From the NCBI RefSeq assembly GCF_007859075.1, contig NZ_VOAK01000025.1, positions 1 to 64,000 on the forward strand: 64,000 bases of DNA. The letters are read 5' to 3'. The notes beneath the pieces were generated by a model. It was not told the origin of the DNA, made no database searches, and saw only the letters and a list, made by a program, of their open reading frames with translations. Below are positions 1 through 9,499 of the stretch, piece after piece (the first letter of the stretch is position 1; the number at the start of each line of letters is the position of its first letter). Position numbers and translations under genes: made by a program. Origin of the DNA: Gemmobacter aquaticus. GTDB taxonomy: Bacteria > Pseudomonadota > Alphaproteobacteria > Rhodobacterales > Rhodobacteraceae.

Positions 1-1065
<1,065 letters not shown>

Positions 1066-1069
<4 letters not shown>

Positions 1070-1680
1070 CCTCACGCCCCATCATCGCTATTCTGCGCGG
1101 TCTTACCCCGCCCGAGGCTGAACCCATTGCCACTGCACTGATTGAAGCTGGCGTCGATCGGATCGAGGTGCCGCTGAACTCGCCCGAGCCATTGCAGAGC
1201 ATTGCAGTGATGGCGCGGGCCTTTGGCGCCACGGCGTTGATCGGTGCCGGGACGGTGCTTAGCGTCGAGGACGTCGCGCGGGTTCAGGATGCGGGTGGGC
1301 GGCTGGTTGTATCGCCCGACTGCAATCCTGCGGTGATCGCAGCCACCAAGGCGCGCGGCATGCAATCTTTTCCGGGTGTGTTCACCGCGACGGAATGCTT
1401 TGCCGCACTTCGGGCGGGGGCGGATGGGCTGAAGATTTTCCCCGCCTCTATCATGGGGCCGCAAGGGATCGCGGCCTTGCGCGCGGTGCTGCCGCCGGTC
1501 TGTCCGGTCTATGCGGTGGGCGGCGCAGGGGTGGATAACCTTGCTGAATGGCTGCGCGCAGGGGCCAGCGGCTTCGGGATCGGCACCGCGCTCTATCGTC
1601 CGGGGGATGATGCCCGCACGGTTGGGGAAAAGGCGCGGGCGCTGGTCGCGGCCTATGATCGGGCAACCGGGAATGGCTAA
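1066..1680 (+). CDS. dgoA: 2-dehydro-3-deoxy-6-phosphogalactonate aldolase
   Basis: A 204-residue class I aldolase of the KDPG/KDPGal family, cleaving 2-dehydro-3-deoxy-6-phosphogalactonate to pyruvate and glyceraldehyde 3-phosphate. The Schiff-base lysine is in LKIFPAS, the catalytic Glu region is [12 protein letters not shown], the phosphate-binding region is [10 protein letters not shown], and LIGAGTVL is the usual strand. It directly follows dgoK (4-bp overlap) and shares 8 bp with the downstream lactonase. The galacto rather than gluco assignment comes from the dgoK partner and the NSPEP motif. Confidence 0.92.
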
Positions 1681-2521
1681 GGTCTTTGACGCGCGCTCGT
1701 GCTTTCTGGGCGAGGGACCCCTGTGGCACCCGCTGCGGCGCGAACTCTTCTGGTTTGACATCATTGGAAAGCGCCTTCTGTCGCGCCGCGACGCCCAGCA
1801 ATCGGAATGGCAGTTTGACGAACATGTCTCGGCTGCCGGATGGATCGATGAGGATCATCTGATCATTGCCTCGGAAACCGGGCTCTGGCGCTTTGATATC
1901 CCGACCGGCGACCGGCACCTTCTGGTCGCGCTGGAGGCTGACAATCCGGTGACGCGGTCGAACGATGGCCGGGCCGACCCCTTTGGCGGTTTCTGGATCG
2001 GGACGATGGGAAAGCGGGCCGAACCGGGCGCTGGCGCGATTTACCGCTTTTTCCGGGGCGAGGTGCGGCGCCTCGTGGATGGTATCAGCATCTCGAATTC
2101 GATCTGTTTCGCACCCGATGGAGCATGTGCGTACTACGCCGATACCGCCCGGCAAAAGGTCTGGCGGGTCGGGCTGGATACCGATGGTTGGCCCGTCGGC
2201 ACACCCGCGCTCTATCTGGACCTTGAGCCTGAGGGGCTATGGCCGGACGGGGCGATCACCGATGCCGAGGGCGGGTTCTGGAACGCGCAATGGGGGGCGG
2301 GCCGGATCGCGCGATATCTGCCGGACGGACGGTTTGACCGTTCAATCGCGGTTCCGGCGCCGCATGTGACGTGTCCGGCGTTTGCAGGGGGGCGCCTGAT
2401 CGCCACCTCGGCGCGAGAGGGGCTGAGCGCCGATGCGCTGGACGCGGCTCCGCTGTCCGGGCAGGTGTTTGATCTGGGGCAGGTTGCGTTGCTGCGACCT
2501 GAGCCCAGTGTGAACTGCTGA
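1673..2521 (+). CDS. SMP-30/gluconolactonase family sugar lactonase
   Basis: A 282-residue six-bladed beta-propeller lactonase. The metal-binding Glu is in FLGEGPLW near the N-terminus, [10 protein letters not shown] holds the ligand Asn, and [11 protein letters not shown] holds the catalytic Asp. The frame is open further upstream, but the ATG at 1673, overlapping the dgoA stop, gives the normal family start (MAKVFDAR). It probably opens the galactono- or arabinono-1,4-lactone that feeds the dehydratase/DgoK/DgoA route. The exact lactone cannot be read from sequence. No terminator is visible before the next promoter region. Confidence 0.88.
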
Positions 2522-2556: not shown

Positions 2557-2608
2557 CTTCGTGCTAGGCTGGTGTCCGGGTTGGGCCGACAGCAGCGCGG
2601 GGGCAGGT

Positions 2609-3589
2609 GTGGCGGCTACGGACGACATCGCGCGGGCGTGCAGAATCAAGGTGATGCCATCGCCTTGGGCAGCAGGTCTTGCCGTGGCTTTTGCCCGCTG
2701 GAACGGCGAACATCCCGCAATTTCTGATCTGGCGACGGGCACCGGCCCGGATGCGGCGTCTGCTTGCGCGCGGGCCCTGGGCGAGATGGCCGAGAACCTG
2801 TCAATTGGCGCGGGCAGCCATCCACAACCAGTGCCCGCCATCGGGCGGGATGGCAAGGTTATCGTCGCTGACTCTCGTATGCTGATACCCGCTGGCAGTG
2901 CAGATCCGGGCAGTGAGGGTGTCGCAGCCGGTGAAACCATGGCCGAAGCGAAGATTGCGGCCCTCTATGAGCGGATCGAGCGCGCGGCGTATGCGCTGTG
3001 GTGGGGCGGCGGGCTGGCGGCACGGAAGGCGCATCTTCCCACGCCTTTGCTAAGGCAGTACCGGCAGGCGCAGACACAGCGACGCTCGATGCTGTGGCAT
3101 CTGCCGCTGATGAACGCAGTCACGATCTGCCTTGTGCTGACCGATGACGGGCAGTGCGGGCAGATCGCCATGGGCACAGCGGCACACAGCGATCCGCACC
3201 GTGCAGCCGATGCCGCATTGCGCGAGGCGCTGCAGGCCGAGATTGCCTGGCTTGCCCCGCCGCACCACCCTGATGTCGTGCATCGCGATGCGATGCACGC
3301 GGCTCTGCGCTCTCGCCTGCCCGTATTGCTGGGGGCGGGCCGCACAGTGGTGGATCGTGGCGGCGACGGTGACCCTCTGCTGCGGATCGAGGCGGAGTTG
3401 GTCGGAAGGGGGTTGGATTGGGGCTATGCTGATCTGACCGCAGCCGGGATCGGTGTTCCGGTCGTGCGCTGCGTGATCCCCGGCTGGCCGCTGGCCCGGC
3501 CGATCCTGATGTCACCCAACCGTGCAGATGGCGCAGCGGTGACGCAGTCTCTGGCGTCCTTCGCATATGCCGCTGCAGTTGGAGGGTGA
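2609..3589 (+). CDS. Stand-alone YcaO-family ATP-dependent enzyme
   Basis: YcaO enzymes use ATP to activate peptide-bond amides, giving azolines, thioamides or amidines in RiPPs and modified proteins. All three family signatures occur in order (counting from a GTG at 2561): RALGEMAEN near 71-79, GETMAEAKIAALYERIER near 124-141, and DPHRAADAALREALQ near 211-225. These supply the acidic nucleotide/Mg ligands. GTG at 2609 is preferred (326 residues) because GGGGGCAGG lies just upstream; GTG 2561 or ATG 2654 are alternatives. The C-terminus has no proline-rich PxPxP tail. No TfuA, E1-like ocin-ThiF or dehydrogenase partner is adjacent; instead a haem peroxidase starts one base after the stop. The substrate is unknown. 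Confidence 0.85.
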   Translation: MAATDDIARACRIKVMPSPWAAGLAVAFARWNGEHPAISDLATGTGPDAASACARALGEMAENLSIGAGSHPQPVPAIGRDGKVIVADSRMLIPAGSADPGSEGVAAGETMAEAKIAALYERIERAAYALWWGGGLAARKAHLPTPLLRQYRQAQTQRRSMLWHLPLMNAVTICLVLTDDGQCGQIAMGTAAHSDPHRAADAALREALQAEIAWLAPPHHPDVVHRDAMHAALRSRLPVLLGAGRTVVDRGGDGDPLLRIEAELVGRGLDWGYADLTAAGIGVPVVRCVIPGWPLARPILMSPNRADGAAVTQSLASFAYAAAVGG

Positions 3590-3590
3590 C

Positions 3591-5078
3591 ATGGCGCCGG
3601 AGGATGATGTGACGCCGGGGGGCTACATGATCTGGCGGGGCAACCCGGCGGCAATTCTGCCACCGCCGACCCTGCCTGAAGGCAGGCGCAGCTTCGGCTG
3701 CGCGGCCATGGCGCGGCCTGCCGATCTGCACCGGGCCTGTGGTGGTTTGCGACATTCGGTCGAAACAGCCGTCGCGGCCAGCGCCAAGATCGCAAAGGGC
3801 TCGCGTCGCGAAGGGCGCATCCCGGCCGGCTACACCTATCTGGGGCAGCTTCTGGCGCATGACCTGTGCGCCCCGGCCGAGGGTGCCTTTGACTATCCAC
3901 TGCAAGGTGCGGCGCCTGCCCCTGCGCCGTCGCAGCGGCAGTCCCGTGCTGTGCCCTTGCACCTTGAAACCCTGTTCGGGCCGATCGCGTTGAACAGGCC
4001 GCTGCCCGGCCTGCACCGATTTGCCCCGCATCCGGCATTTCCGATGTTTGCGGCCGATATCAACAGGGTCGCGCCCGGTGATGGGTCCAACGCGCGGGCC
4101 GATCTGCATGATGGCCGCAACGACGATTCCCCCATGGTTGCGCAGCTTTCGGCGCTGTTTGTCGAAGCCGCACATCGGGCCGAGGCTGCTTTTCGTCAGC
4201 AGGGCCTTGCAGCGGATGCCGCCCGCAGTGCGGCGCGGGCCAAGGTTGCGCGGCTGTGGCACCGGATTCTTGTGCAGGATTATCTGCCGCATCTATGCCT
4301 GCCCGGCCTGCCCCCGCCCGTTGCCGACCGGACCGGCCCGCGTGAGGTGCCTGTCGAGGTGAGCCACGCAATCCTGCGCATGGGGCACTGGATGGTGCGT
4401 AGCCAGTACACGCTCGCGGCGGATACCGTCCCGGTGCGCGAGCTTTTGGCCGGGCAAAGCGGGATTGCCGAAAAACGCGCCCGACCAGGGTTGGAGAACC
4501 ATTGGCGCATCGACTGGCGCAACTTCTTTGAGCTTGACCCCGCGGTGCGGCCACAGCGCAGCTTGGCGCTGCAGACGGGGATTGCGGTCATGTTCGGCTC
4601 GGACTTCACGCTGCCTGCGGGTCTGCGCATCCATTCCGCGCTGGTGCGCAGCGACAATGATCTGGCGTTGCGCGATCTGGCGCGCAGCATTGACGGCGGC
4701 GTCCAGCGTGTCAGCGCTCTGGCGCGGCGGCTGCAGGGGCTGCGCACGCGCTATCCGCATTGGGTACTGTGGAGCGCCGACGCGCGCCGCACGATGATTG
4801 CCGACTGGTTTGCCGCAAACAATCTCAAGCCCGTCCCGGCCCTGCTGCGCGACCCGCCACTTTATCTGTACGCGCTGATCGAGGCGGGCAAAGGCACGAC
4901 CCGTAAGGGCTTTGGTGGCGGTCGGCATCTGGGCGCGCTCGGCTCGGTCCTGCTGGGCCGGTCGATTGCCGCAGCCATCGTGGCGGCCGAGGCAGCCCTG
5001 CCACCCAATGATCCCGCACTGCCCGACCTCGACGCCATCACCACGATGCCTGACCTTGTTCGTTTCCTGAGCCAATGA
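3591..5078 (+). CDS. Animal-type haem peroxidase (peroxidase-cyclooxygenase superfamily)
   Basis: A 495-residue protein with the conserved landmarks of animal-type peroxidases: distal His in YTYLGQLLAHDL (His90), distal Arg in DLHDGRNDDSPMV (Arg176), the helix VAQLSALFVEAAHR, ARLWHRILVQDYLPHL (220-235), and proximal His in AILRMGHWMV (His266). The Glu that usually links the haem covalently near the distal Arg appears as Asp. No signal peptide is visible, so the enzyme may be cytoplasmic. The ATG at 3591 follows GGAGGG by 4 nt, one base after the YcaO stop, so the two are cotranslated. It may oxidise a halide, a phenol or the YcaO product; that is inference. Confidence 0.88.
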   Translation: MAPEDDVTPGGYMIWRGNPAAILPPPTLPEGRRSFGCAAMARPADLHRACGGLRHSVETAVAASAKIAKGSRREGRIPAGYTYLGQLLAHDLCAPAEGAFDYPLQGAAPAPAPSQRQSRAVPLHLETLFGPIALNRPLPGLHRFAPHPAFPMFAADINRVAPGDGSNARADLHDGRNDDSPMVAQLSALFVEAAHRAEAAFRQQGLAADAARSAARAKVARLWHRILVQDYLPHLCLPGLPPPVADRTGPREVPVEVSHAILRMGHWMVRSQYTLAADTVPVRELLAGQSGIAEKRARPGLENHWRIDWRNFFELDPAVRPQRSLALQTGIAVMFGSDFTLPAGLRIHSALVRSDNDLALRDLARSIDGGVQRVSALARRLQGLRTRYPHWVLWSADARRTMIADWFAANNLKPVPALLRDPPLYLYALIEAGKGTTRKGFGGGRHLGALGSVLLGRSIAAAIVAAEAALPPNDPALPDLDAITTMPDLVRFLSQ

Positions 5079-5093
5079 TTTGCGGAGAACCTG

Positions 5094-5654
5094 ATGCCTG
5101 ATCGCCAGCCCTTGCCTGATGTGAAATACGTCACCATCAACTTCACCGTCACTGGCGCCTTCATGGTGGCCATGTCACGGGAAAAGGCCTCGGCCCGACC
5201 GAAGACCGTGAAAACCTTCATGGCGAAGCTTGCGGATTATGCCCGTGCCCATGCCGAAACGATCTCGACCGGGCCGGGGCGGCGCGAAAAGGCCCCTGAC
5301 GTGCCGAAGAAGCGTATCACCTCCCAGAAGTTTGAAGTGAGCTTCCGCCCGAACCCGGGCGATACCTCGCCAGATCCACTGGGTACCTGGGCGGTTGATG
5401 CGGTGCTTGAGGTGCGCAATGTCCGCCGTGGTGCCAAGATGAGGCTGTTTACCAACTCGGCCTCGAGCGTCCATATCCGCCTGCCGGAACGTCAGAATAT
5501 CGCCGCCAAGGAAGACATTGCGCTGGATCATGAGGCGAACGGAACCCAGTTCGACAAGATGCCCTATATCGACGACTACTTCTCGGGCAAGAAGTCGGCG
5601 ATGGAGTTCGTCTGGGACAATGTCGGTGACTATACCACGCGGTCCTGCCGCTGA
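5094..5654 (+). CDS. Protein of unknown family in the YcaO-peroxidase operon
   Basis: A 186-residue soluble protein that I do not recognise. GGAG sits 8 nt before the ATG, and the start is only 15 bp after the peroxidase stop, so it completes the operon. No signal peptide or membrane segment is visible. The N-terminal third is basic, the middle has short beta-like stretches, and there are several acidic/basic patches. It contains one cysteine only, the penultimate residue, in the C-terminal sequence DYTTRSCR. A Thr/Ser/Cys-rich end beside a YcaO enzyme is suggestive of a modification site, but it could equally be a structural partner of the peroxidase. The 3' end overlaps the convergent regulator gene by 25 bp. 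Confidence 0.8.
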   Translation: MPDRQPLPDVKYVTINFTVTGAFMVAMSREKASARPKTVKTFMAKLADYARAHAETISTGPGRREKAPDVPKKRITSQKFEVSFRPNPGDTSPDPLGTWAVDAVLEVRNVRRGAKMRLFTNSASSVHIRLPERQNIAAKEDIALDHEANGTQFDKMPYIDDYFSGKKSAMEFVWDNVGDYTTRSCR

Positions 5655-7564
5655 TCCTCAAGCGTTTCCAGCGCCTCGGCCACAAGATCAAGGCCGTGAC
5701 CGCGGCGCATGGAACTGGCTGACAGGAACCAGCGCAGCGGATCAGGTGCCCTGTTCCCGCGCCAGCGGGCGGAAAGGTCGCGACAGAACCGCGCCCAGAA
5801 CTCTTCGGCTTCCCGCGGCTTGCGCGCCATGACGGCCGCCGCCGCACCGTAGGCATAGGTAAAGGGAATGGTACCCTGCGACTTGTCCGCAAGCTCCATC
5901 GCCAGATCATACTGTCCCGACAGCAGCGCAACTGGGGTGCGGTAGCCCATCGAGACCCGGCAGACCCCTGAATCGAGTTGCGCAGCGGCCGTCGCCAGCC
6001 GAGCGGCGCGCGCGACATCGCCCGAAAGTGCCATCATCTCGGCCGCGCCCGACAGCCTGCGCGGGTTGCATTGCGACAAATCAGCCACCACCGAAGCCGC
6101 ATGTGCAGCACTCTGCATGTCGTCGAGCAGGATCGAGCTCCAGCCGAACGCAAGCCAGGCGTCGCCGCGTTCCGGCGCCTCTGCTGTGATGGTTCGGCCG
6201 ATCTCCAGCGCTTCGGGCACGCCCGCATGCACAGGGCCGATGCCCGGAAAGATCAGCTCCCGGCTGTTCAGAAGCTCGGCCAGACCCACGCGGGCACGCA
6301 AGCCCAGATCCCCGCCCGAGGCGACCGAGCGCAGCAGCGCCTCGGCCCGGCGATCGGCATCGGGCGACCAGTCTCGCATCAACCAGCGGGCGCGGATCAG
6401 CTTGCGGTAGTCGGCAAGTTCAGTGTCCGAATAGCTCTCGATCCCCGAGATGTAATGCGCCTCAAGCCGGCCGGTCAGGCGCATCGCCATGCGCTGCACC
6501 GCAAAGCCCGAGTTGCGCACCCAGTCGTCGCGGTGAAGCTGCAACGGCCAGGTCCAGAGGATCGCGCCCGAACCGAGGTCCTTGAGCGTGAGGATCAGGC
6601 GCATATCCTCAAGCCCCGGCGACAGACGGCCGCGCAGCTCATAGTTTCCGACGCGGGCAGGGGGCAAGAGGTCCGGCCCTGCCTCGATGGTGACCCAGTC
6701 CTCAACCGCGAAAAGGGCAGCACTGATTTCCGCCTGCACCGCCGAGATCACGATCTGATCCTCATCCGACAGACCCGCGAGGCTGAACGGATGCAGGAAG
6801 ATGGTGATCCGCTCCTCGATCTGGGGCAGCGTGCTGGCCGAAGCCGTGCCCGAGAGCTTGAGCGAAACAGCAAGGGCCTGCGTCTCGGACGAAGGCTCGA
6901 CATCAAAATCCTCGTCCAGCACCTCCCACAGGCGTCGATAGTGATCCAGCGCGGCGGCCTTGTTGCCCGCGGCGATCTCCAGTTGCATCAAACTGCGGGT
7001 GGCCTGTTCGTCCTGCGGCGTCAACTCGCGCAGTCGTTCGGCCAGAACACGTGCCTCGGGCCGGCCGGCGGCGGCCGCGAGCCGGGTTTGCAGCCCTTGG
7101 GTGATCTGTGCGAGCCACGCCGTACGACGTTCGATCAGAAACTGGTCGAACCCGGGATCGAGGCCCCAAAGATCAGCGGCAAACCGCGTTTCGGCATCTG
7201 ACAGCGACAGCGTGGCCAGCGGCGCGGTATCCGCGGCATCCCACTGGACAAGGGCGCGCATCACTTCACAGGTGCAGGGCGTGAAATGCGCCCGGATATG
7301 CTGTCGGTCGCCTTCAAGCAGTACCAACGGGGCACTGTCGCGGGCCAGAACATGCAGTGTATTGCGCAGCGAGCCGCGCGCCTTTTCCGCATCTGAATCC
7401 GACCACAGAAGATCGGCCAACCGATCACGTGGGATGGTCGGCGATCCGGTAAGGCAAAACCATGCCAGGATCGCACGCTGCTTCTGGCCGCGAACTGGAA
7501 CCTCGCGGCCATCTGCAATCAGGCTGAACCTGTCAAGAATCCGGTATCCACAGCCATTGGCCAT
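5630..7564 (-). CDS. SARP-like transcriptional regulator (winged helix, BTAD and TPR-like C-terminus)
   Basis: A 644-residue regulator. The N-terminal ~95 residues form an OmpR-type winged helix (SLIADGREVPVRGQKQ, LADLLWSDSDAEKARGSL), followed by a bacterial transcriptional activation domain ending near residue 230 (EQATRSLMQLEIAAGNKAA, ALDHYRRLWEVLDEDF). The remaining ~400 residues hold a mixed domain and alpha-helical repeats resembling TPRs, without a visible NB-ARC P-loop. ATG at 7564 is preferred; the longer frame starts with a GTG at 7630 lacking a spaced ribosome site. It lies convergent to the YcaO operon and downstream of the oxoamine synthase terminator, so it is probably the local regulator. 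Its ligand is unknown. Confidence 0.8.
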   Translation of the reverse strand: MANGCGYRILDRFSLIADGREVPVRGQKQRAILAWFCLTGSPTIPRDRLADLLWSDSDAEKARGSLRNTLHVLARDSAPLVLLEGDRQHIRAHFTPCTCEVMRALVQWDAADTAPLATLSLSDAETRFAADLWGLDPGFDQFLIERRTAWLAQITQGLQTRLAAAAGRPEARVLAERLRELTPQDEQATRSLMQLEIAAGNKAAALDHYRRLWEVLDEDFDVEPSSETQALAVSLKLSGTASASTLPQIEERITIFLHPFSLAGLSDEDQIVISAVQAEISAALFAVEDWVTIEAGPDLLPPARVGNYELRGRLSPGLEDMRLILTLKDLGSGAILWTWPLQLHRDDWVRNSGFAVQRMAMRLTGRLEAHYISGIESYSDTELADYRKLIRARWLMRDWSPDADRRAEALLRSVASGGDLGLRARVGLAELLNSRELIFPGIGPVHAGVPEALEIGRTITAEAPERGDAWLAFGWSSILLDDMQSAAHAASVVADLSQCNPRRLSGAAEMMALSGDVARAARLATAAAQLDSGVCRVSMGYRTPVALLSGQYDLAMELADKSQGTIPFTYAYGAAAAVMARKPREAEEFWARFCRDLSARWRGNRAPDPLRWFLSASSMRRGHGLDLVAEALETLEDQRQDRVV

Positions 7565-7669
7565 GTTTTCGACAGTCCCTTTGCGACGCCCCCGACCCAA
7601 GGGATAGTTGAGCAGCGCAGGGGCGTCCACCCTTCATGGGCGTAAATGGGCTGTCGGCAAAGGAAAAAC

Positions 7670-7698
7670 GGGCGATGGCCGGGGAGAGGCCATCGCCC
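7670..7698 (-). terminator. Rho-independent terminator after the oxoamine synthase
   Basis: An 11-bp perfect inverted repeat, GGGCGATGGCC (7670-7680) and GGCCATCGCCC (7688-7698), with a 7-nt loop. On the minus strand it is followed by CGTTTTTCC, a classic U-tract. It separates the oxoamine synthase from the regulator gene, so the regulator must use its own promoter or read-through. Confidence 0.9.
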
Positions 7699-7752
7699 GA
7701 GAACATTAACAATGAAATGGTGAAATCAGGGGTGAAATACAGGCACTGGTAA

Positions 7753-9084
7753 TCACGCAGCGACGAAGCGGTTGGAGAATGCCTTTTCATCGGCCTCCGC
7801 CAGTCGTTTGCGGCACTCGATCAGAAGATCGACAAATCCGTCGATCTCCTCGGGGCCGTGTCCGGCCATCACGCGCAGACGCCAGACAGCAGCGCCCGGA
7901 GTCGCATGATTCGCCCCGATACGCTCGGACAGGTTGACGAGCGCACCATTGGCCAGAACCTCGGCCGTCAGGCGGCGGGCACGCGACAGCGGGCCCAACC
8001 GCACTGTAACCACCGGGCCAGGCTCACCGCGAAGCTCGAACCCGGCCTTAATCAGACGTTCCCGCAGATGCCGGGCGTTGGCGATCAGCGATTCCCGACG
8101 CTCGCGGCCATCTTCGGACGCGACGATTTCTAGTGCGGCAAGAACGATGGCCGCCTGAACGGGAGATACGGCATTGCTGTCACCCAGCGTGCTGCACGAC
8201 AGTCGCAACGCGACTTTGACCGCCGGGTGGCTGGAGGCGACGAACCCGCCGTTCGCGGCAAAGACCTTGGAGAAACTGCCGACCATCACGTCGATCCGGC
8301 CCAGCATCTTCTGGATCTCTGCCACGCCGCGGCCGGTTTCACCCAGCACGCCCAGATCGTGCGACACATCGACGAGCAGCGTGGCCGCATGGCGCTTGCA
8401 CAGCGCCTGCAGTGCGCGCAGGTCGGGCGCGTCGCTTTCGGTTGCGAACAGGGATTCGGTCACCACCAGAATGCCAGCCTGCGGGTCCTCATCGCGCAGC
8501 CGTTCCAGCCGCGAGGTAATCGCTTGCAGCGACAAATGCGGCATCCGATGAACCCGCGCACCCGAGGCCGCAGCCCCTTCGCGCAGGCAGTCATGTGCCA
8601 GCGTGTCGATCAGCACGTGATCGCCTTCGCGCACCAGCGTCCGGATCGCGCCATAGCCTGCGGCCCAGCCCGAGGGGAATACCGTCGCATCCTCGTAGCG
8701 CAGGAATGTCGCCAGCTGATCCTCCAGCGCGGTGGTGAGCGGATTCAGCCCCATCTGCACGGCGGTGCCTGCAGCGTGCACGCCGAACCGGCGGCCTGCC
8801 GCCGATGCCGCGGCAAGAATCCGCGGATGCGATGCGAGGTTCAGATAGTCCTGCGCCGCGAAATTGATGCCCGAAATGCCCCGGCCGCCCCTGTCGCGGC
8901 CCACAATCCTCGGACCGATTCGCGACCCGTTCATCTTGCAGGTGGCGTCAAAGCCAGCCTCAAGCCGGGCCTCCATCCATTCGGCCACCGGCAGCCAGCG
9001 GTCCATAACCGAGACGCAACCATCGTCCAGATGGTCCACGGCGATGGTATCCAAAAGCTCTGCACTGTCGAAGCGGCGGGTCAT
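7753..9084 (-). CDS. Alpha-oxoamine synthase family PLP enzyme (ALAS/AONS/SPT/CqsA group)
   Basis: A 443-residue fold-type I PLP enzyme that would condense an acyl thioester with an amino acid. Active-site residues are intact: Schiff-base Lys273 in GSFSKVFAANGGFVA, Asp239 and His242 in LLVDVSHDLGVLGETGRG, and the ring-stacking His164 in DTLAHDCLREG. The glycine loop reads GVHAAGTAVQMG, unlike GTRNISG of ALA synthase, so hemA is unlikely; serine palmitoyltransferase-like or CqsA-like specificity is possible. ATG 9084 is preferred because AGAGGA lies 8 nt upstream; the frame is open to 9126. No acyl carrier protein is adjacent. The regulator of the YcaO region lies downstream. Confidence 0.85.
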   Translation of the reverse strand: MTRRFDSAELLDTIAVDHLDDGCVSVMDRWLPVAEWMEARLEAGFDATCKMNGSRIGPRIVGRDRGGRGISGINFAAQDYLNLASHPRILAAASAAGRRFGVHAAGTAVQMGLNPLTTALEDQLATFLRYEDATVFPSGWAAGYGAIRTLVREGDHVLIDTLAHDCLREGAAASGARVHRMPHLSLQAITSRLERLRDEDPQAGILVVTESLFATESDAPDLRALQALCKRHAATLLVDVSHDLGVLGETGRGVAEIQKMLGRIDVMVGSFSKVFAANGGFVASSHPAVKVALRLSCSTLGDSNAVSPVQAAIVLAALEIVASEDGRERRESLIANARHLRERLIKAGFELRGEPGPVVTVRLGPLSRARRLTAEVLANGALVNLSERIGANHATPGAAVWRLRVMAGHGPEEIDGFVDLLIECRKRLAEADEKAFSNRFVAA

Positions 9085-9139
9085 GGTCTGTCCTCTCGAT
9101 GCGCCATCTGTTGGCGATGAGGACAAGATTGCACGGCCA

Positions 9140-9170
9140 CCGTCAGTCTTCCGTCATTGCTGAAATGACG
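9140..9170 (-). promoter_or_regulatory. Direct repeat and inverted repeat upstream of the oxoamine synthase
   Basis: CCGTCA occurs at 9140 and again at 9151 (11-bp step) on the plus strand, and the second copy runs into a 7-bp inverted repeat CGTCATT (9152-9158) / AATGACG (9164-9170). They lie 56-86 bp upstream of the oxoamine synthase start, where an activator could bind. The heptamer differs from that upstream of YcaO, so common control is not shown. Confidence 0.3.
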
Positions 9171-9349
9171 CTAGGTCAATAGGGTGGTGCGGGACTGCCG
9201 GTTTCGATCATCCATTTGAATTCAATCGTGGAATTTAGATGACATCATATGGGTGGGGTCATTGCCCAGTCCATCGGCCCAAATTGCCGGGCAAGAAATC
9301 GCGCTCGGATCACGCCCGGCTGCGACGCTGGCCAGTGGTGTGATGTGGG

Positions 9350-9499
9350 TTAGAACAACCAGCGGATGAGTGCAACGCCAAGCCAGACCCAGACCGCCGT
9401 GCCGCCGATGATGCAGGGAAGCAACCACCAGCCCGAAGCAAGACGGGCCTTGGATTCAGGGCGTTCCTTGCTGGCAACGGTGCTGGAGATGACGGTCAT
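9350..9499 (-). CDS. Small single-pass membrane protein (49 residues)
   Basis: A 49-residue frame with an ATG at 9499 and TAA at 9350-9352. A purine-rich GGGGAA lies just before the start. A basic/acidic N-terminal 18 residues (KERPESKARLAS) is followed by one strongly hydrophobic segment, WWLLPCIIGGTAVWVWLGVA, and a short LIRWLF end, suggesting N-in/C-out insertion. I do not recognise the family. It stands alone between the oxoamine synthase promoter and a DUF4405 gene. The clean amphipathic layout and ribosome site argue that it is translated. Confidence 0.6.
   Translation of the reverse strand: MTVISSTVASKERPESKARLASGWWLLPCIIGGTAVWVWLGVALIRWLF

Follow-up and report, generated by a model that had tools for sequence, protein, structure and literature searches.

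Genes for a YcaO enzyme, a haem peroxidase, a BTAD regulator and a small Cys-tailed protein occur together in Alphaproteobacteria: a candidate protein-modification cassette

To our knowledge, YcaO enzymes are known to act on the short precursors of ribosomally synthesized and post-translationally modified peptides (RiPPs) and on very few proteins. Among the closest described systems, the cyanobactin enzymes LynD and TruD act at Cys residues of peptides, forming thiazolines, and the bottromycin ring is finished by a haem enzyme, a P450. As stated in excerpts of one article, most azoline-forming YcaOs depend on an E1/ThiF-like partner and the azoles are produced by a flavin dehydrogenase, and the stand-alone YcaOs of bottromycin need no partner, one of them yielding a C-terminal thiazole (PMC7136475). 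Excerpts of two further articles describe YcaOs that modify cellular proteins, namely E. coli YcaO, which without a RiPP recognition element (RRE) thioamidates the folded uL16 (PMC13063428), and the YcaO-TfuA pair that thioamidates McrA (PMC5589413). Here we describe a locus of Gemmobacter aquaticus (contig NZ_VOAK01000025.1, positions 1 to 64,000, this stretch of 64,000 nucleotides being called the window) that holds genes for a stand-alone YcaO, a haem peroxidase, a 186-residue protein and a BTAD regulator. Genes predicted to encode these components, the small protein being marked by a Cys-containing tail, occur together in Alphaproteobacteria, and it is fairly likely that they form a four-gene protein-modification cassette in which the YcaO would make a thiazoline at the tail Cys and the peroxidase would contribute an oxidation.

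A previous reading of the window made from sequence only (the sequence-only reading) had proposed a new system, holding that the idea would fail if YcaO genes of related genomes were never linked to the peroxidase. This linkage was examined in 159 loci, cited below by L numbers, all of which were obtained through a peroxidase or a YcaO match. Peroxidase, YcaO and SARP-type regulator were found together in 68 of them; the other classes comprise loci with peroxidase and regulator (4), YcaO and regulator (2), peroxidase and YcaO (4) and, as controls, peroxidase only (62) and YcaO only (19). A homologue of the BTAD regulator at E<1e-60 is present in 74 of the 159 loci, and such a match together with a peroxidase or a YcaO defines the cassette loci used below, which include one locus with no tail (L109), one with a YcaO of another kind (L113) and nine second copies of the same genomes. 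As for the sampling, a first genome scan with the single YcaO as query had found no relative. At genus level a YcaO match was obtained in 7 of 11 genomes (six at 44-48% identity besides that of the window itself) and at family level a peroxidase was detectable in 30 of 295 genomes. Among the first 39 loci, including the window, YcaO and regulator are both present in 20, the peroxidase accompanying them in 19 of the 20, and the remaining 19 have no YcaO and a regulator match that is at most weak (three, 1e-19 to 1e-25). YcaO matches in the order (46/244 genomes), class (52/385) and phylum (95/398), which include other kinds of YcaO, added 40 stretches, and widening by a peroxidase alignment took the best 80 of 512 relatives, so that distant ones are under-sampled.

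Full cassettes were found in Gemmobacter, Poseidonocella, Stappia, Mesorhizobium, Inquilinus, Thalassobaculum, Nitratireductor, Roseobacter, Phaeobacter and Sulfitobacter, and every flagged cassette belongs to a named alphaproteobacterium or to a genome of the window's class or nearer. Since the set recurs across many genera with differing flanking genes, the linkage exceeds chance. Furthermore, the distances of YcaO, peroxidase, SARP and tail protein correlate among 54 loci (rho 0.45-0.77, with 0/999 permutations as high); for this correlation, as for the neighbour clustering and the YcaO tree below, ten loci were dropped as duplicates, L116 wrongly, and the correlation additionally omits L113, L266 and L046. 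A tblastn search of plasmids with the window peroxidase gave no match. A Mesorhizobium peroxidase matched 26 records, and among the five inspected the cassette was found, with YcaO and regulator beside the peroxidase, on pMhuNZP2235a of Mesorhizobium huakuii and pD4M1F of Paroceanicella profunda.

The small protein is recognisable by its C-terminus. In 73 of the 74 cassette loci (72 by pattern, L192 from its sequence) a tail lies around one Cys, typically as Tyr, four residues, Cys, one residue and the stop, the usual form being [V/I]-[G/A]-D-Y-T-x-x-x-Cys-x-COOH. One tail protein was seen per cassette locus, as in all of the first 20 (20/20), and in L046 the tail is the C-terminus of the peroxidase itself. 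The strict pattern, searched by one rule throughout, is present in 59/74 cassette loci, 0/62 peroxidase-only loci and 0/19 YcaO-only loci, and in one of the four loci with peroxidase and YcaO, L144, where the regulator is cut off by the contig end; a looser rule applied to called genes gave 0/62 and 1/19 in the controls. The first 20 loci served to define the pattern, and its blind data are the two plasmid loci only, in which the intervening "hypothetical proteins" of pMhuNZP2235a and pD4M1F end LGDYVMSRCK and LGDYVLQHCD, respectively. Plasmid peroxidases with no YcaO (Sinorhizobium meliloti pSymA, Rhizobium CB3171 and Microvirga VF16) showed no tail within about 7 kb on each side.

The 72 tails found by pattern reduce to 63 unique sequences, and with L192 added by hand and a register shift applied to L267 (one residue) and L113 (two residues), 64 unique tail proteins could be compared. 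Cys is penultimate in 62 of them and at -3 and -4 in one each, Tyr is at -7 in 55, Gly or Ala at -9 in 61 and Asp at -8 in 37, and a second Cys among the last 20 residues is found in 3/64. The presence of Cys in 64/64 tails is by construction, because the selection pattern required it, and is no evidence. As background, 36 of 2070 other called genes have a penultimate Cys, and 2 of 2070 combine it with an aromatic residue at -7, the tail protein of L144 being one in both counts. Up to ten tail proteins are stop-to-stop open reading frames (ORFs) missed or miscalled by the gene caller (possibly L058, L081, L082, L099, L112, L113, L187 and L265-L267).

The bodies of the tail proteins fall into 8 BLAST families (38, 12, 5 and 4 members and four singletons), so that the tail is conserved beyond the body, and the two largest families showed no similarity by hhalign. 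The 186-residue family itself has one copy in the window genome and homologues at the other six Gemmobacter loci. No relevant Pfam or NCBIfam match was obtained for the 28 and 22 members scanned (NCBIfam was run on seven more, Pfam on two of these), and among the members scanned there was neither a known leader family (NHLP, Nif11) nor a short Cys/Ser/Thr-rich core precursor. An AlphaFold (AF2) model of the window protein has a predicted local distance difference test score (pLDDT) of 85 and a predicted template modelling score (pTM) of 0.82, with no PDB match at E<=0.001; the model of a second family is poor (pLDDT 58). An NHLP or nitrile-hydratase-like leader, suggested by eye, was discarded for want of any NCBIfam or Pfam match and of any PDB fold match of the window protein. 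Judged from its conserved Cys tail, the 186-residue protein looks like the substrate, with the tail very probably the part acted upon, and the earlier statement that a peptide substrate is missing is probably wrong.

Tails of other kinds were also seen. Small proteins ending SCASC and CCSEC accompany YcaO and peroxidase in L268 (7575-7946) and L132 (5806-6129), two loci where a cyclase-TPR protein replaces the BTAD regulator and which constitute a related variant, and the enzymes of L269 are similar to theirs; from these loci, the Cys-tail idea may reach beyond the cassette. Four peroxidases assigned outside the cassette by gene order (L060, L067, L072 and L074) end ...L(M/Q/Q/F)CG, also with a penultimate Cys, and have no YcaO nearby.

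The two enzymes were assigned by family comparison. The window peroxidase itself gave no PF03098 match by hmmscan even at E<=1, a point on which the sequence-only reading is corrected; 14 of 19 aligned family members match PF03098 at E<=0.01, and the family profile matches lacto-, eosinophil and myeloperoxidase (best E 2e-14), and on this family evidence the predicted protein is an animal-type haem peroxidase. Gln86-x3-His90-Asp91 is invariant and Arg176 and His266 are kept at 90% or more (19 rows), positions that we take to be the distal Gln-x3-His, the Arg and the proximal His. The strict distal pattern is present in 67 of 76 peroxidase ORFs, with at least five of the nine misses being near variants, and no signal peptide is evident by eye in the window protein. 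A second animal-type peroxidase lies beside the cassette in L088 (13620-15464) and L091 (13703-15469), both Mesorhizobium, and in L082 (5413-7263), Poseidonocella; L272 (10011-11855) is the same record as L088.

The window YcaO is the sole PF02624 match in its genome, and Glu75, Glu78, Glu137 and Arg141, presumably involved in ATP binding, are invariant in a 32-row alignment. The profile built from this alignment matches LynD (5.1e-52), TruD (3.6e-51) and MusD (5e-41) best in the PDB, with conserved Glu/Arg positions aligning, and farther off MJ1094 and 6ci7 (about 1e-26), with E. coli YcaO more distant still (2.9e-10). A midpoint-rooted tree built from 127 YcaO domains divides the cassette YcaOs, 60 in all, into groups of 25 (the window's), 22 and 12, the last branching with 25 mostly long, fused-type YcaOs, and a single member, from L113, that lies elsewhere. 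Thus, despite the strong profile match to azoline enzymes, the window's group is not placed with them by the tree alone.

Partner proteins of the usual kinds are lacking, as the sequence-only reading had noted. TfuA gave 0 matches in the window genome (27 contigs, 99.97% complete), the E1-like TIGR03882 gave one fragment of 21.8 bits against a cut-off of 36.9 with an in-frame stop, and no E1-like or ThiF-like partner was found at the window locus or as a recurring neighbour cluster; the same reading would have given way to a YcaO of a TfuA- or E1-dependent clade with partners elsewhere, and these searches left it standing. Compared with LynD, TruD and MusD, the cassette shares the YcaO domain and differs in having no fused or neighbouring E1-like domain, in a presumed substrate that is a protein of more than 120 residues with mostly one tail Cys, and in a haem peroxidase instead of a flavin dehydrogenase, although no genome search was aimed at a SagB-type dehydrogenase. 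With the bottromycin YcaOs it has in common the absence of a partner protein and the presence of a haem enzyme, and would share the C-terminal thiazole, but no short precursor, P450 or methyltransferase recurs at the cassette and the peroxidase is of animal type. Recognition of a folded protein would be shared with E. coli YcaO, whose sequence is far and whose site, according to excerpts of the report, lies beside Arg81/Met82 of uL16 and not in a C-terminal tail (PMC13063428); the word "peroxidase" is absent from that paper. Modification of a cellular protein would be shared with McrA thioamidation, which in the excerpted text concerns an internal site, Gly465, of an archaeal protein and depends on TfuA (PMC5589413). 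The open-licence literature yielded no description of a YcaO-haem peroxidase cassette; papers naming both YcaO and peroxidase look unrelated by title and beginning of abstract, and one mentions, in the text available, a Dyp-type peroxidase and a YcaO cluster that has no relation to this one (PMC8776678). The system is real and widespread and, as far as this literature was searched, undescribed, in agreement with the sequence-only reading.

These comparisons suggest the following scenario. The small protein would be a dedicated substrate, whose folded body presents a short C-terminal end. The YcaO would spend ATP in activating the amide of the backbone that immediately precedes the tail Cys, and most likely the Cys thiol would then close a thiazoline, although for this ring as the first product the chances are about even. 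The haem peroxidase, replacing the usual flavin dehydrogenase, would use H2O2 to oxidise the tail, either from azoline to azole, or at Cys, or at the conserved Tyr that precedes the Cys by five residues; that it works on the same tail seems reasonably likely. Genes for transporters, proteases or immunity recur in a few loci at most, and for this reason the product would probably stay on the protein or be freed by general proteases, with retention on the protein an evenly balanced prospect. Control of the operon would fall to the BTAD regulator, which may respond to the modified protein. More speculatively, the cassette could be a general, mobile alphaproteobacterial system that places a haem-peroxidase-finished thiazole, or a similar group derived from Cys or Tyr, at the extreme C-terminus of dedicated folded proteins, with a tail portable between unrelated bodies; the group would be a permanent cofactor borne by the protein or a redox reporter that the BTAD regulator reads.

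Several observations weigh against this scenario. The tail pattern was loosened after later loci had been seen (including L107, L108, L113, L192 and L267). The cassette YcaOs do not form one clade in a tree with weak deep support, and none of 70 has the PxPxP C-terminal end that occurs in many azoline-forming YcaOs. Common descent or species history may explain part of the distance correlations. No YcaO stands beside peroxidase and regulator in four loci: L081, with cassette-like YcaOs elsewhere in the genome; L097, with only a weak YcaO (1.4e-21) in its metagenome-assembled genome (MAG); L120, where the contig starts inside the peroxidase; and L109, a Rhodospirillales MAG in which BTAD regulator, oxoamine synthase and peroxidase (4216-9467) have neither a nearby YcaO nor a tail, the regulator match is weaker (9e-72) and a cassette-type YcaO is on another contig. 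Conversely, a cassette-type YcaO in L271 (9110-10534, 5e-120) stands with neither peroxidase nor regulator nor strict tail in 18 kb of sequence, and the sole nearby YcaO of L113 is of another kind. Finally, the peroxidase is absent nearby in 2 of 74 cassette loci (L044 and L206), and Gln replaces its proximal His in L042. L042 and L044 retain the YcaO and an identical tail, YTTRSCR; the peroxidase being dispensable in places where these are kept, the YcaO-tail pair would be the core and the peroxidase a later step.

Other explanations have to be weighed against the same data. The genes may encode a RiPP natural-product pathway in which the small protein consists of a long leader and a very short core, and the C-terminal peptide, once modified, is cleaved and leaves the cell as a signal or antibiotic. 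The resemblance of the YcaO profile to cyanobactin cyclodehydratases fits this, as do the oxoamine synthase at the window locus and the SARP-type regulator, SARP-type regulators often governing secondary metabolism. However, in the neighbour clustering of 64 loci no non-core family occurs in more than seven: oxoamine synthase in 7 (six Gemmobacter and L109), an ABC ATPase in 7, always at least 2.7 kb away, a response regulator in 5 and a DMT-like transporter in 4, among others, although distant families could escape such clustering. Moreover, the tail has mostly a single Cys, leader families gave no match, and the window protein is predicted to be well folded, and we regard an exported peptide as unlikely. 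It is similarly doubtful that the product of the YcaO is a thioamide or some other exchange in the backbone, the Cys being a recognition or redox site and the peroxidase acting on Cys or Tyr: the E. coli enzyme acting on uL16 and the profile matches to MJ1094 and 6ci7 are in favour, but the best PDB matches are to LynD, TruD and MusD, TfuA is absent from the genome and a Cys forms the centre of the tail.

The tail Cys may also be no YcaO substrate at all, if the small protein is a subunit or scaffold of the peroxidase that docks through its tail, or a redox sensor for the BTAD regulator. The fused tail of L046 and the position of the tail gene, adjoining the peroxidase and not the YcaO in many non-Gemmobacter loci, are in favour of such a role, but YTTRSCR is unchanged in L044, which has lost the peroxidase, and in L042, whose peroxidase has its proximal His replaced, and the strict tail is missing from all 62 peroxidase-only loci, which makes this explanation improbable. 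Chance neighbourhood, or a tail produced by the codons of an overlapping regulator gene, can practically be dismissed: the window's 25-nt overlap means that some codons are shared, but the tail is kept where there is no overlap (e.g., L047 and L057), and the recurrence of the set in many genera and on plasmids is taken as a refutation. A YcaO-modified Cys tail, with the peroxidase as the later oxidant, is the interpretation that we prefer.

The features of the window locus are listed in Table 1; the ORFs and the spacing of one base between YcaO and peroxidase were found as the sequence-only reading had given them. YcaO, peroxidase and the 186-residue ORF form a tight run on the plus strand, with regulator and oxoamine synthase on the minus strand, and the regulator gene is convergent with that of the 186-residue protein, the overlap being at 5630-5654. 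The YcaO has candidate starts at GTG 2561, GTG 2609 and ATG 2654, and since matches from six Gemmobacter relatives begin at window residues 14-29, the start at 2609 or 2654 is as likely as that at 2561. The upstream genes constitute an ordinary sugar-acid operon. A perfect direct repeat, CGTTAAC, lies upstream of YcaO (2527-2555) with a spacing of 22 bp, which is SARP-like; as a SARP-type operator it was rejected, being found at none of the six other Gemmobacter loci and, by our own estimate, within chance.

Table 1. Coordinates of genes and of the tail codons at the window locus
Feature	Position	Strand	Remarks
YcaO, stand-alone	2561..3589	+	PF02624 E 2.9e-25, 89.7 bits vs cut-off 25.7
Animal-type haem peroxidase (by family evidence)	3591..5078	+	ATG at 3591, one base past YcaO stop
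186-residue orphan protein, presumed substrate	5094..5654	+	ORF; no Pfam/NCBIfam match
C-terminal tail codons G178-D-Y-T-T-R-S-C-R186	5625..5651	+	Cys185 at 5646-5648
SARP-type BTAD regulator	5630..7630	-	PF03704 E 5.1e-10, 40.3 bits vs cut-off 22.1
Alpha-oxoamine synthase-like pyridoxal phosphate (PLP) enzyme	7753..9126	-	PF00155 E 3.2e-34
2-keto-3-deoxygalactonokinase, KDPG aldolase, SMP-30/gluconolactonase	161-2521		Directly upstream of YcaO

Among the loci analysed, the oxoamine synthase was found at all seven Gemmobacter loci and L109; it is a lineage accessory of Gemmobacter and not a core component. Two cassette regulators, in L054 (4742-7528) and L276 (10567-13083), carry an adenylate/guanylate cyclase-type domain in addition to BTAD, the regulator of L276 scoring above the BTAD cut-off and the regulator of L054 just below. 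A protein of about 465 residues, possibly a partner, lies 0.1-0.6 kb from the core in L048, L102, L197 and L198.

Taken as a whole, the earlier proposal of a new system holds as regards a recurrent unit with no TfuA or E1 and missed the substrate candidate, and the oxoamine synthase is not core. The cassette represents a large set of stand-alone YcaOs for which a substrate candidate is evident, the site is fixed and the partner is a haem peroxidase, and because it offers these three together it is directly testable. If the proposed chemistry is true, it would be a new route to azol(in)e-type groups that needs neither E1-like nor flavin partners, the tail would serve as a marker motif for finding new substrates, and bacteria of marine, soil and symbiotic habitats would possibly possess a new cofactor or signal derived from protein.

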